Source of the DNA: a virus
Length of the DNA: 40,196 nt
IMG/VR virus record: IMGVR_UViG_3300030098_001480
Location: 1-40,196 of that record
Reading direction: 5' to 3' (one strand)
Positions 36,000 to 40,196 of this stretch are shown here, piece by piece (the first letter of the stretch is position 1; every line of letters starts with the position of its first letter). The position numbers and the translations under genes are program-made. Below the pieces are notes generated by a model. That model was not told the origin of the DNA, searched no databases, and saw only the letters and a list, made by a program, of their open reading frames with translations.

Positions 36000-36027
36000 A
36001 TTATACACTTGATTTATTTTTTTGCAA
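36000..36027 (-). promoter_or_regulatory. Early promoter (minus), TTGCAA-16-TATAAT
   Basis: TTGCAA, 16 bases, a perfect TATAAT, then AATGGGAG. It would drive the replication operon. It is physically interlocked with the plus-strand promoter at 36009-36036. Confidence 0.75.
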
Positions 36028-36036
36028 GTATATAAT
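36009..36036 (+). promoter_or_regulatory. Early promoter (plus), TTGATT-16-TATAAT
   Basis: TTGATT, 16 bases, a perfect TATAAT, then TATGGGATAC and an AAGGAG SD 8 bases before the SNF2 start. The plus and minus promoters share the same 38 bases, so only one polymerase can bind at a time. This may be a switch. Confidence 0.75.
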
Positions 36037-36060
36037 TATGGGATACAAGGAGAATTTAGA

Positions 36061-37506
36061 ATGTATGATTATAAGTATAAAACAGAACCCTTTCAACATC
36101 AAAAAACTGTATTAGAAAAATGCTGGGATAAAAAAACTTTTGCATTTTTTATGGAAATGGGTACAGGCAAGTCAAAAGTTTTGATAGATAACCTGGCCAT
36201 ATTACACGAAAAAAGAAAAATAAATGGTGCCTTGATTGTTGCACCAAAAGGTGTGTACAGAAACTGGATGATATCAGAGTTACCTAAACATCTACCTGAT
36301 AGCATAGATCACTCTGTCATATGCTGGACACCAACACCAAATAAAAAACAAAAAGCTTTGTTAGATTCGTTGTCCGTGTTCTCTGAAAAATTAAAAATAT
36401 TTTTGATAAATGTTGAAGCGTTAAGCACGACTAAAGGATATACTGCAGCTTTAGAGTTTTTGAAAAATCATGCAGTGCTCATGGCAGTTGACGAGTCCAC
36501 CACAATTAAATCACCCGCAGCGACAAGAACCAAGAGTGCAATAAAACTAGGAGCATATGCTAAGTACAGAAGAATACTTACAGGATCACCAGTTACTAAA
36601 TCACCTTTAGATTTGTATACGCAGTGTGCATTTTTATCTGAAGACTTGTTAGGATATACATCTTTCTGGGCTTTCAAAAGTCGTTACGCACTAATGGCAC
36701 AAAGAAATGCAGCAGGTGGTGCACACACTTATCAGCATGTTATCAAGTACATTAGACTTGATGAGTTAAATGAAAAACTAGAAAAGTTTTCGTCACGAGT
36801 TTTAAAAGAAGATTGTCTTGACTTACCAGAAAAATTATACACAAAAAGATTTATTGAGTTGACTAAAGAACAACAAAAAGCATATCAAGAAATGAAACAG
36901 TTTGCCATAGCAGAATTAGAAGGTGATACTATGACTGCTTTTTCTGGTCTCACACAATTGATGAGACTACATCAAATAACTTGTGGTCACATGACTACAG
37001 ACGAAGGTAAGTTAATAACTTTAAAAAACAATAGGATAAAAGAGTTACTTAACTTTTTAGATGAAACAGATGGTAAAGTAATCATTTGGGCAAATTATAG
37101 ACATGACATAAAAACAATAACAAAAGAACTGGAGAATAAATATGGAACACAAACTGCGTGTAGCTTTTACGGTGATACGGCTGTGGACGATAGGGATCAG
37201 ATTGTATCTAGGTTTCAAGATAAAGAGGATGATCTTAAATATCTCGTTGCTAACCCAAAGACTGGAGGGTACGGACTTACTCTTACTGCTAGTCACACTG
37301 TCGTGTACTACAGCAATAGTTACGATTTAGAAATACGTTTACAATCAGAGGACAGAACACACAGGATTGGTCAGAACAATAAAGTAACTTATGTAGACTT
37401 TATTGCAGAAAAAACTGTTGATGAAAACATTGTTAAATGTCTAAGATCTAAGATTGACATTGCGACAGAGGTGCTGGGTGAAGACTTGAAAAGCTGGCTA
37501 GTATAA
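36061..37506 (+). CDS. SNF2-family helicase/translocase (481 aa)
   Basis: Start ATG 36061 with SD AAGGAG. Motif I MEMGTGKSKV (31-40), Ia IVAPKGVYRNW, II MAVDESTTIK (144-147 DEST in place of DEAH), III LTGSPVTKSP, then IV-VI: VIIWANYRHDIKTI, LVANPKTGGYGLTLTASHTV and SEDRTHRIGQNNKVTYVDFI. It is an ATP-driven dsDNA translocase; phage versions may remodel DNA, help recombination or overcome host DNA-bound proteins. It is the lead gene of the plus-strand operon and divergent from the replication genes. Confidence 0.9.
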   Translation: MYDYKYKTEPFQHQKTVLEKCWDKKTFAFFMEMGTGKSKVLIDNLAILHEKRKINGALIVAPKGVYRNWMISELPKHLPDSIDHSVICWTPTPNKKQKALLDSLSVFSEKLKIFLINVEALSTTKGYTAALEFLKNHAVLMAVDESTTIKSPAATRTKSAIKLGAYAKYRRILTGSPVTKSPLDLYTQCAFLSEDLLGYTSFWAFKSRYALMAQRNAAGGAHTYQHVIKYIRLDELNEKLEKFSSRVLKEDCLDLPEKLYTKRFIELTKEQQKAYQEMKQFAIAELEGDTMTAFSGLTQLMRLHQITCGHMTTDEGKLITLKNNRIKELLNFLDETDGKVIIWANYRHDIKTITKELENKYGTQTACSFYGDTAVDDRDQIVSRFQDKEDDLKYLVANPKTGGYGLTLTASHTVVYYSNSYDLEIRLQSEDRTHRIGQNNKVTYVDFIAEKTVDENIVKCLRSKIDIATEVLGEDLKSWLV

Positions 37507-37520
37507 TATAACTTTTATAC

Positions 37521-38156
37521 ATGGCTTATCTTAATCATAATCTACCTCCTTTCAGTGCTTATATAAGAGACGAATATTTATATGACCACGAGAAAGGACA
37601 CGGTCAATTTACTTTTGCTGACGTGCATACTGTAAATAGTCTTGAGCGCAGAGCACTTTTATTTGAGTGTTTATTACCCAACGGTGTAAATTGGACTAGA
37701 AGACCAATACATGCTTTTTGTTGGAAAAAAGATGCACCTAAACATCCTTTAAATATACATCAATATTGGGACTGTTTTTCACCTTATGTGGACGTACAAA
37801 GAAGAAACAGGTTAGCTAATTGTAGAGCAGAATTAGTAGACTACAAAGGCACAAAAAGAAAAGGCACTTACATGTTTACTATAGATTGGGCATGGGAAAA
37901 CAAAGCTGGTATGTTAGATACTAACTTTAGTGAAGATCCTGAACATAAATGTGCACACATGTTTCGTATGGATGACGGTAATTTTTTTGCATATCCAAAT
38001 AATAGAACTATTTGGTATGATGACGCTTTTATGGAAGAGAGATTAGTAAAGAACCCAGGATATAAGATTGATCAAAACTTTTACACAGTAGAAAACACTA
38101 GAGAAGAAGACACTAAGACTGATGACTCTTACATGACTCAGTTTGAACGCCCTTAG
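37521..38156 (+). CDS. Conserved phage hypothetical (211 aa)
   Basis: Begins MAYLNHNLPPFSAYIRDEYL and YDHEKGHGQFT; then many aromatic residues (CWKKDAPKHPLNIHQYWDCF). It has the pattern of a marine phage protein family without assigned function, seen from memory next to SNF2 or replication genes. It has no evident SD, with the ATG 15 bases after the helicase stop. The stop overlaps the start of the next gene (TAGTG). A soluble beta-rich protein. Confidence 0.7.
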   Translation: MAYLNHNLPPFSAYIRDEYLYDHEKGHGQFTFADVHTVNSLERRALLFECLLPNGVNWTRRPIHAFCWKKDAPKHPLNIHQYWDCFSPYVDVQRRNRLANCRAELVDYKGTKRKGTYMFTIDWAWENKAGMLDTNFSEDPEHKCAHMFRMDDGNFFAYPNNRTIWYDDAFMEERLVKNPGYKIDQNFYTVENTREEDTKTDDSYMTQFERP

Positions 38157-38929
38157 TGAAAATATTTTTTGATCATATTACTGGTAAATTAACACACTAC
38201 GATTTACTTTATAGTTTACCATTAGCAGAGTTTGAAAAACATGAGTATGACTATGCATTTAACAATGGCTGGTTACCTCTTTCTTGGTACTATACAAAGA
38301 TAAATCACATTACATGGATTAATGCCAGGTCCAGTAGACTGCAGCTTTCAAAGTTTACATTCTCTAAAAAACAAAAATATACATTAAATAAAAAAAATAT
38401 AAGTGTTCATACTTACGATAAGTTACCTACATATTTAGTAGATGATATTGCAGAAATATATAAAAAATATATTCGTCAAAAAAATTACTATGAAATAAAT
38501 AATGAGAAAGAAAGTGAAGAGTTTATGCGTGATGATCCGATTGATTGGAAGTATTTTATTTATTTTTACAAAGATAAACCTATCGCTTTTACTGAAGCCA
38601 TGATGATTGACAATCATTTTATGACAGGACAATTTGCATGGGATTATGAAAATCCTAAATTAGGCATGGGCACCTACGCTACCTTACACGAGATAAAATA
38701 TTGTATGAACTGGAATTACCAGTATTATTATTTTTCTTACAGTTATGAAAATAGCAGTGCATATAAATCAAAGTACGATGGCTTTGAGTTTTGGACAGGT
38801 AGAGAATGGTGTAAAGACAAAAATGTCTATAATCAACTATGTAAAAATGATAGTAATATAAAAAATTTAGCTGATCTTAATGATAATCAACAAAAGTATT
38901 TTGATTTAGTTTTTGGCGCTCATGTTTGA
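38156..38929 (+). CDS. Aminoacyl-tRNA-protein transferase-like (ATE/Bpt-like, 257 aa)
   Basis: GTG start overlapping TAG (TAGTG). The sequence follows bacterial leucyl/arginyl-tRNA-protein transferases: HEYDYAFNNGWLPLSWYYTK (E.xYD.l...GWR), INARSSRLQLSKFTFSKKQK (..R..v..F..s.sqRR.l), then EIYKKYIRQK and the C-terminal domain YFYKDKPIAFTEAMMIDNHF, PKLGMGTYATLHEIKYCMNW (LGtYa.L.eIe) and SSAYKSKYDGFEFWTGREW (.mayK..F.P.e). The N-terminal Cys pairs of Bpt are missing. The GNAT-like fold would add Leu or Arg to protein N-termini, marking them for ClpS/ClpAP decay. The assignment is by motif order from memory. Confidence 0.6.
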   Translation: MKIFFDHITGKLTHYDLLYSLPLAEFEKHEYDYAFNNGWLPLSWYYTKINHITWINARSSRLQLSKFTFSKKQKYTLNKKNISVHTYDKLPTYLVDDIAEIYKKYIRQKNYYEINNEKESEEFMRDDPIDWKYFIYFYKDKPIAFTEAMMIDNHFMTGQFAWDYENPKLGMGTYATLHEIKYCMNWNYQYYYFSYSYENSSAYKSKYDGFEFWTGREWCKDKNVYNQLCKNDSNIKNLADLNDNQQKYFDLVFGAHV

Positions 38930-39364
38930 CAAAGGATTATTTAAAGCCTTATTTATTTTTAGGTCAAGACTTTCCTCTAATAATTTCATCTCATCTAGTA
39001 GTTCTCTAGCATCTTCCTTTTGTCTATCCTCAACATCATTTACAATTTCTGTAATGTGTCTGATGTCACCATTCATTTGACGTAAATCAGCTTTCATATC
39101 AGAACGCATATCTCTAGCGACATCTGATATTATAGTTATTTCCTGAAGTATCATATCAATCTCAGACTTCAATACAGCCATACCTTCATCATAATGAGAT
39201 AAGTCTGGCTCAGTGTACAGAGTTATCTTTTCCTTCATATCAAGATAATCCTGATAAAAAGTAAAGCCAGTCCACGCAGCACCACCTAGAGCACCTAATA
39301 GAGTAAAGATGGCAAACACCTTCCCCCCGGTAACCTTCATACCGCTATACTCAATACTGGGCAT
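38906..39364 (-). CDS. Membrane-anchored coiled-coil protein (152 aa)
   Basis: A short N-terminus, one membrane segment (KVFAIFTLLGALGGAAWTGF, about residues 14-33), then a long helical, Met/Asp/Glu-rich coiled coil to the end (KADLRQMNGDIRHITEIVND; DARELLDEMKLLEESLDL). The topology suits an i-spanin-like or virion-membrane protein. Its 3' end converges with the plus-strand gene at 38156-38929 (24 bases overlapped). It is adjacent to the truncated acidic gene. Confidence 0.6.
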   Translation of the reverse strand: MPSIEYSGMKVTGGKVFAIFTLLGALGGAAWTGFTFYQDYLDMKEKITLYTEPDLSHYDEGMAVLKSEIDMILQEITIISDVARDMRSDMKADLRQMNGDIRHITEIVNDVEDRQKEDARELLDEMKLLEESLDLKINKALNNPLSNMSAKN

Positions 39365-40196
39365 TTATCATCTCCTGAATTGTATCTTCTTGTGCCATGT
39401 TAAATAACATACCATACTGATCATCTATTGTCTTGTTTAAATATTGATCTACATTTTTATCTTGTATGACAGATTGACTGTCAAAAAATGTTTTTGTATT
39501 ACCTAAAATTTGCATAACTATTAATGTTTTGGTTTGTGCAGCGTCATCATATCTAGCCTTATCGTCAATTTTCTTTACAATTTTTGTAGCAGCTTTTTCT
39601 TTATTTGATACTTTAGGCTCAGATGGTTTCTCTTCTTCTGTTGTTTCTTCTGGATCTTCTTCTTTTTGTGGTGTTTGTGGTTGCTCTGGTTCTGATTCCT
39701 GTGGTTCTTCTTGAGATTCTTCGATAATCTCTTCTTCAGGTTCAGCCTCTACAACTACAATCTCCTCCATTTCCATTTCAATCTCTAACTCGATCTCCGT
39801 TTCTATTTCAACAACTTCTATCTCAGGCTCTGGTAAATTTATTTCTATCTCAGCTATTTCTAATTCTACGCTAGCCATAGTAATTTCCTCTACAGGAGCT
39901 TCTATAGGTGCAAACTCTATCTCACCATCATTCATACTTACATCATTAAATTCAAACACCTCTTCTACAAAATCTAATTCAACAGAATCAAAAAGATTTA
40001 AATAGTATATTTCTTCTATTGTTGTGATTTGTTGTGTTATAATTGTGTTAATTACATTATAAAACACATTAACAGTCACATCATCAAACAAGGGACCTAT
40101 TGCAAGATTGATGTCTCGTCCACCTACCTCAACAGTTATTCTATTTAAAACACCACTGAAATCGAAAGACCCAGTGTATGATTGGTAACCTGATGC
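39351..40196 (-). CDS. Acidic protein, 5' end beyond the window (at least 281 aa)
   Basis: The frame is open to the right edge: 35 more codons precede a TTG at 40091, so the true start lies outside. Those codons read SGYQSYTGSFDFSGVLNRIT, EVGGRDINLAIGP, reminiscent of a lectin-like module end. A Glu-rich stretch of about 130 residues follows (EIEINLPEPEIEVVEIETEI; EEEIIEESQEEPQESEPEQP), then a helical C-terminal domain (DQYLNKTIDDQYGMLFNMAQ, ending INAQY). Probably a virion or tail-associated protein; very acidic. Confidence 0.6.
   Translation of the reverse strand, partial: ASGYQSYTGSFDFSGVLNRITVEVGGRDINLAIGPLFDDVTVNVFYNVINTIITQQITTIEEIYYLNLFDSVELDFVEEVFEFNDVSMNDGEIEFAPIEAPVEEITMASVELEIAEIEINLPEPEIEVVEIETEIELEIEMEMEEIVVVEAEPEEEIIEESQEEPQESEPEQPQTPQKEEDPEETTEEEKPSEPKVSNKEKAATKIVKKIDDKARYDDAAQTKTLIVMQILGNTKTFFDSQSVIQDKNVDQYLNKTIDDQYGMLFNMAQEDTIQEMINAQY

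Follow-up and report, generated by a model that had tools for sequence, protein, structure and literature searches.

Gene B of the 40,196-nucleotide viral DNA analysed here (IMG/VR record IMGVR_UViG_3300030098_001480; hereafter the window) encodes a member of the ATE/Bpt superfamily of aminoacyl-tRNA-protein transferases. Homology over both domains, a fold like that of ATE1 and co-occurrence with gene A were shown by computation, and tests for four features of Bpt/ATE1 proper came out negative, which makes the protein a new viral branch rather than a Bpt. In our judgement there is an even chance that the protein, from a Cys-cluster-free viral ATE/Bpt branch, is active as an aminoacyl-tRNA-dependent protein transferase, whose acceptor would most likely be the product of the adjoining gene A or a protein presented by it. 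If this reading is true, the B family and its candidate partner A would show a virus redirecting charged tRNA into the modification of proteins. The relevant features of the window are as follows.

36022..37506, + strand: SNF2-type helicase, in the same + strand island as genes A and B; not a conserved neighbour
37521..38156, + strand: gene A, 211 aa, phrog_3704 (PHROGs E 2.2e-54)
38154..38158, + strand: TAGTG, in which the start of B overlaps the stop of A by 1 nt
38156..38929, + strand: gene B, virus-specific ATE/Bpt-superfamily protein of 257 aa, GTG start
38156..38176, + strand: MKIFFDH, N-terminal signature of B (D6 invariant; H7 in 47/49 and F5 in 45/49 members)
38303..38338, + strand: N50-R61 of B (NHITWINARSSR), aligning with the Bpt C..C..C...R segment
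38348..38407, + strand: basic segment of B, residues 65-84, containing helix 71-77; putative contact to the tRNA acceptor stem
38450..38791, + strand: ATE_C/GNAT core of B, residues 99-212 (Pfam ATE_C match)
38762..38809, + strand: Y203-K204 to W218 of B (YKSKYDGFEFWTGREW), equivalent to the Bpt YK..(F/Y).P.E...W block without the preceding KM

The GTG start of gene B is supported by the MK[IL][FY]FDH N-terminus common to its relatives and by the 1-nt overlap with the stop of gene A. This overlap may couple the translation of both genes, and the spacing between A and B is near zero in most relatives too. Gene B is under purifying selection, with dN of about 0.3 and near-saturated dS.

The assignment of 38156-38929 as ATE/Bpt-like had been made in the initial annotation and was borne out by the profile searches, by alignment with Bpt over both domains and by the best fold match, ATE1. 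Among Pfam families ATE_C (PF04377) scored best (37.3 bits, cut-off 25, E 4.9e-9; residues 99-212 on profile positions 3-120 of 122) and was matched by 48/49 members of the B family (E <= 0.1). Of the two profiles proposed for checking the assignment, ATE_C thus stood above its cut-off, whereas ATE_N (PF04376) gave no reported match to the window protein and one (E 0.023) among the 49 members. Alignment of the B family with 17 bacterial Bpt proteins by hhalign spanned 190 columns and both domains (residues 25-220, 98.5%, E 1.5e-15). Seven NCBIfam arginyltransferase models matched the window protein, six with E values no higher than 2.1e-4, the best one (NF002346) over residues 19-218; the equivalog cut-offs of these models, 170 bits or more, lay above its best score of 35.1 bits. 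Yeast ATE1 in the PDB was retrieved with E 1e-4 from the single B sequence and 2.3e-8 from the family profile (hmmsearch). The blocks described earlier as LGxxTYAxLxEI- and AYKxxFxxFEFW-like were located as LGMGTYATLHEI (residues 169-180) and AYKSKYDGFEFW (residues 202-213), and G38, R61, Y105, G172, Y192, Y203-K204, E211 and W218 are near-invariant in both B and bacterial Bpt. FastTree grouped the phage proteins into a single clade (support 1.0), which sits among bacterial Bpt at the end of a long branch.

No unrelated GNAT family, Fem-like ligases included, scored better than ATE_C, and the ATE_C core was aligned. The runner-up Pfam family for the window protein was Acetyltransf_6 (PF13480), with 13.3 bits against a cut-off of 22 (E 0.097), seven orders of magnitude behind ATE_C. 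We therefore think it very unlikely that B is a GNAT acyltransferase of the acetyl-CoA type and came to resemble ATE by drift, although Acetyltransf_6 matches 9/49 members (best E 4.7e-5) and several acetyl-CoA GNATs reach Z 11-13 against the B model. ATE1 has the highest Z score, over both domains, and by inspection the [QR]xxGx[GA] loop is missing ahead of helix 171-185.

Structure prediction, proposed earlier as a check, returned ATE1 as the closest fold. The AlphaFold model of B, built on a 49-sequence alignment, had a pLDDT of 90.4 and a pTM of 0.88, and human ATE1 came top both in Foldseek (E 1.4e-9) and with a second aligner (8tzv; Z 16.2, 4.0 A over 222 residues, model residues 10-257). 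The following matches were mostly aminoacyl-tRNA users, namely A-PGS (Z 14.0-14.2), MprF and FemX (Z 11.5-12.2), all within Z 11-14, and LFTR (Foldseek E 5e-6). The fold of B is thus most like that of eukaryotic ATE1 (PDB 8tzv, 8e3s, 7wfx) over both domains, but B is half as long and lacks the CX2C-Xn-CC metal site and the variable domain. With FemX, LFTR (Aat) and MprF/A-PGS it shares the GNAT core, a similar fold and, presumably, an aminoacyl-tRNA donor, whereas the sequence families of these enzymes match it weakly or not at all (LPG_synthase_C in 1/49 and Leu_Phe_trans in 2/49 members, all weak) and their acceptors differ. The closeness of A-PGS and FemX behind ATE1 could suggest a FemX- or MprF-like aminoacyl-tRNA transferase with a non-protein acceptor (peptide, lipid, nucleotide or DNA base). 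The altered N-terminal domain of B, which would imply an altered acceptor site, and the frequent presence of nucleotide or DNA genes close to A in B-less phages are consistent with such an enzyme, but the profile and sequence similarity of B is to ATE and not to FemX or MprF, and we regard this possibility as unlikely.

With bacterial Bpt (PRK01305; NF002341-NF002347; ATE_N PF04376 and ATE_C PF04377) the B protein has in common the domain order, the ATE_C core, the GNAT fold and the basic segment 65-84. Unlike Bpt, it lacks the four invariant cysteines, RH..G.M and KM, scores below the equivalog level and carries a C-terminal GFE[FW]WTGR.W block; it occurs in phages only and is paired with A. 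The missing N-terminal Cys cluster was noticed in the initial annotation and is a property of the whole family: CxxC or CC occurs in the first 95 aa of 0/49 members, and C11, C55, C58 and C61, invariant in the 17 bacterial Bpt, are all absent in 49/49. Within N50-R61 the invariant W54, R58 and R61 form a W...R..R pattern that replaces C..C..C...R. As the Bpt signatures RH..G.M and KM.YK are likewise replaced or missing in the family, B falls outside the canonical Bpt/ATE enzymes. In cellular ATE1 the cysteine cluster coordinates zinc, and the stability and function of the enzyme reportedly depend critically on it (PMC10115844); the B family therefore keeps the ATE fold although it has lost this metal site.

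Having lost several signatures invariant among Bpt, B could also be a non-catalytic ATE descendant that binds tRNA or A, either a pseudo-enzyme or an inhibitor of host Bpt. We consider this highly improbable, since the core residues W162, G172, K204, F210, E211 and W218 are strongly conserved in relatives down to 27-40% identical.

Residues 65-84 are the most basic part of B (net charge +6 in the window protein, family mean +5.3) and align with the basic SRSQKRVLKKN segment of Bpt. ATE1 grips tRNA by a Lys/Arg-bearing helix of its GNAT domain (PMC10115844). Because the segment matches the tRNA-contact region of ATE1 and stays basic across the family, it is a putative tRNA contact in B. With the basic segment kept and the cysteines lost, the tRNA-binding side of B looks preserved, and the acceptor side may have been rebuilt.

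Gene A is the conserved neighbour of gene B. Among 45 B clusters (90% identity) collected by B-only searches, A adjoins B in 40, usually with overlap: 32 have A upstream of B on the same strand, 7 are convergent and one has B upstream of A. In four further clusters (L024, L027, L034, L103) A was not detected despite sufficient room, and the remaining one is located at the edge of a contig. The B of L034, the most divergent one, is overlapped not by A but by a methyltransferase gene in its 116-kb record. The genes flanking the pair are wholly different among contigs (e.g., L018, L055, L067, L074, L078, L082), and the persistence of the A-B adjacency in three arrangements and in unrelated genomes is new here. 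Relative to the window, A showed dN of 0.03-0.04 with dS of 1.7 to saturated (L019, L067, L074, L078, L082), B having dN of about 0.3 in the same contigs; hence purifying selection acts on both genes, with an exceptionally strong constraint on A.

The tagging of proteins with N-terminal Asp/Glu for ClpAP by the N-degron pathway, suggested in the initial annotation, found no support as a specific claim. A strict phage Bpt/ATE that leucylates or arginylates N-terminal Asp/Glu and so directs proteins to ClpS-ClpAP would agree with the superfamily membership and the fold of B, as well as with the 347-kb record G061, in which the A-B pair is accompanied by a ClpS homologue (45.6 bits, cut-off 23; L376:1500-1799) and ClpP (252 bits), located about 100 and 150 kb from the pair. 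Jumbo phages with their own ClpS and ClpP have also been described (PMC7824862). Against it stand the loss of the four cysteines, RH..G.M and KM throughout the family, scores far under the equivalog cut-offs, and a conserved genetic link to A and not to a protease system. ClpS was not found in 14/15 B-bearing records, the window record among them, which is weak evidence as most of these may be fragments. Taken together, we find such a function improbable.

Under the reading that we prefer, an active protein transferase with A as its partner, A and B would be made from one overlapping cistron pair, and residues 65-84 of B would bind a charged host tRNA at its acceptor stem. The amino acid would be placed into the GNAT cleft and then passed on to an amino group of the acceptor protein. 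This acceptor would most likely be A, or else a phage or host protein presented by A, and not just any protein with N-terminal Asp/Glu. The pair may move among marine phages as a cassette. A further-reaching proposal, which we put forward tentatively as a possibility, is that A-B constitutes a mobile two-gene phage system, in which a metal-site-free ATE-like enzyme conjugates the amino acid of a charged tRNA onto A or onto targets that A recruits from the host, a post-translational aminoacylation outside the N-degron pathway.

The B family is virus-specific and occurs in hundreds of uncultivated viral contigs, being abundant in marine ones. Successive IMG/VR scans for relatives yielded 12, 33 and 224; with a divergent member at the head of the query the number was 370. 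A scan with conserved family stretches did not find the family in 84,980 bacterial and archaeal species genomes, and the window protein as query retrieved no relative from named phages at E up to 1. Queries with seven other members (L024, L023, L034, L107, L217, L162, L105) returned from named phages nothing but a mislabelled bacterial contig and one chance-level match. The former, assigned to Acinetobacter phage MD-2021a, was rejected, since the contig CAKLQH020000030.1 comes from a bacterial chromosome (ftsK, trxB, aat, bpt), with aat beside bpt; CAKLQF020000028.1 in the phage collection likewise bears the name Acinetobacter phage MD-2021a. PHROGs held no family matching the window protein, and the 49 members gave two single-member weak matches. 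In BFVD the closest structure belonged to an uncharacterised protein (143 aa) from an uncultured phage. No canonical Bpt was found in viral contigs by one pattern scan of low sensitivity, and in the open-access literature searched no ATE-type aminoacyl-tRNA-protein transferase from a phage was described. Two large records (L025, 221 kb; L035, 206 kb) each carry two B paralogues, and A was found in neither. PolA of the window record is nearest to that of pelagiphage-type phages (48-56% identity), which makes a SAR11-like host likely for the window phage.

Gene A of the window is a member of phrog_3704, the family of cyanophage T4-GC 171 'PurM'. In more than 100 named phages, most of them cyanophages or pelagiphages, A is present without B, which indicates a function of A that is independent of B; no difference was seen between the N-termini of A with and without B. 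In cyanophages A has been labelled PurM or ferredoxin. No AIRS/PurM domain was detected in 26 aligned A proteins or in five A proteins of named phages, and no ferredoxin domain in any A tested (window 37521-38156; L100, L360, L361, L099, L098). These domain results suggest that the widely used purM label of cyanophages, and with it the auxiliary-metabolic-gene reading of phrog_3704, is wrong. The predicted structure of A is weak (two small beta barrels, pLDDT 69), and its Tudor/SH3-like matches are weak as well; with Z of 7.2 or less on such a model no claim of a Tudor/SH3-like fold is made. An overlap with SET or 2OG-Fe(II) oxygenase genes is seen for some A genes. For A of Synechococcus phage Sf-CH1b, the overlapping gene upstream encodes a SET domain, and the one downstream, annotated as DNA endonuclease V, is 2OG-Fe(II) oxygenase-like (L098:3642-4013, L098:4627-5172). 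A role of A as a general adaptor for protein-modifying enzymes was considered and dropped, its other neighbours being ribonucleotide reductase, MazG, DNA polymerase and glycine dehydrogenase.

Gene B had been placed earlier in an early operon after the SNF2 helicase. The two genes share a + strand island, but gene A lies between them, and the term 'early' was not upheld, the promoter-like site at 36009-36036 being not above chance. No other promoter above chance was found. The SNF2 gene was also discarded as a functional partner of B, being absent from most other B contexts. On the - strand, at 39351-40196, a very Glu/Pro-rich protein with no clear family match runs off the end of the window. 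As for the SNF2 gene itself, its start is probably the ATG at about 36061, which follows AAGGAG, and the listed TTG at 36022 is probably too early.
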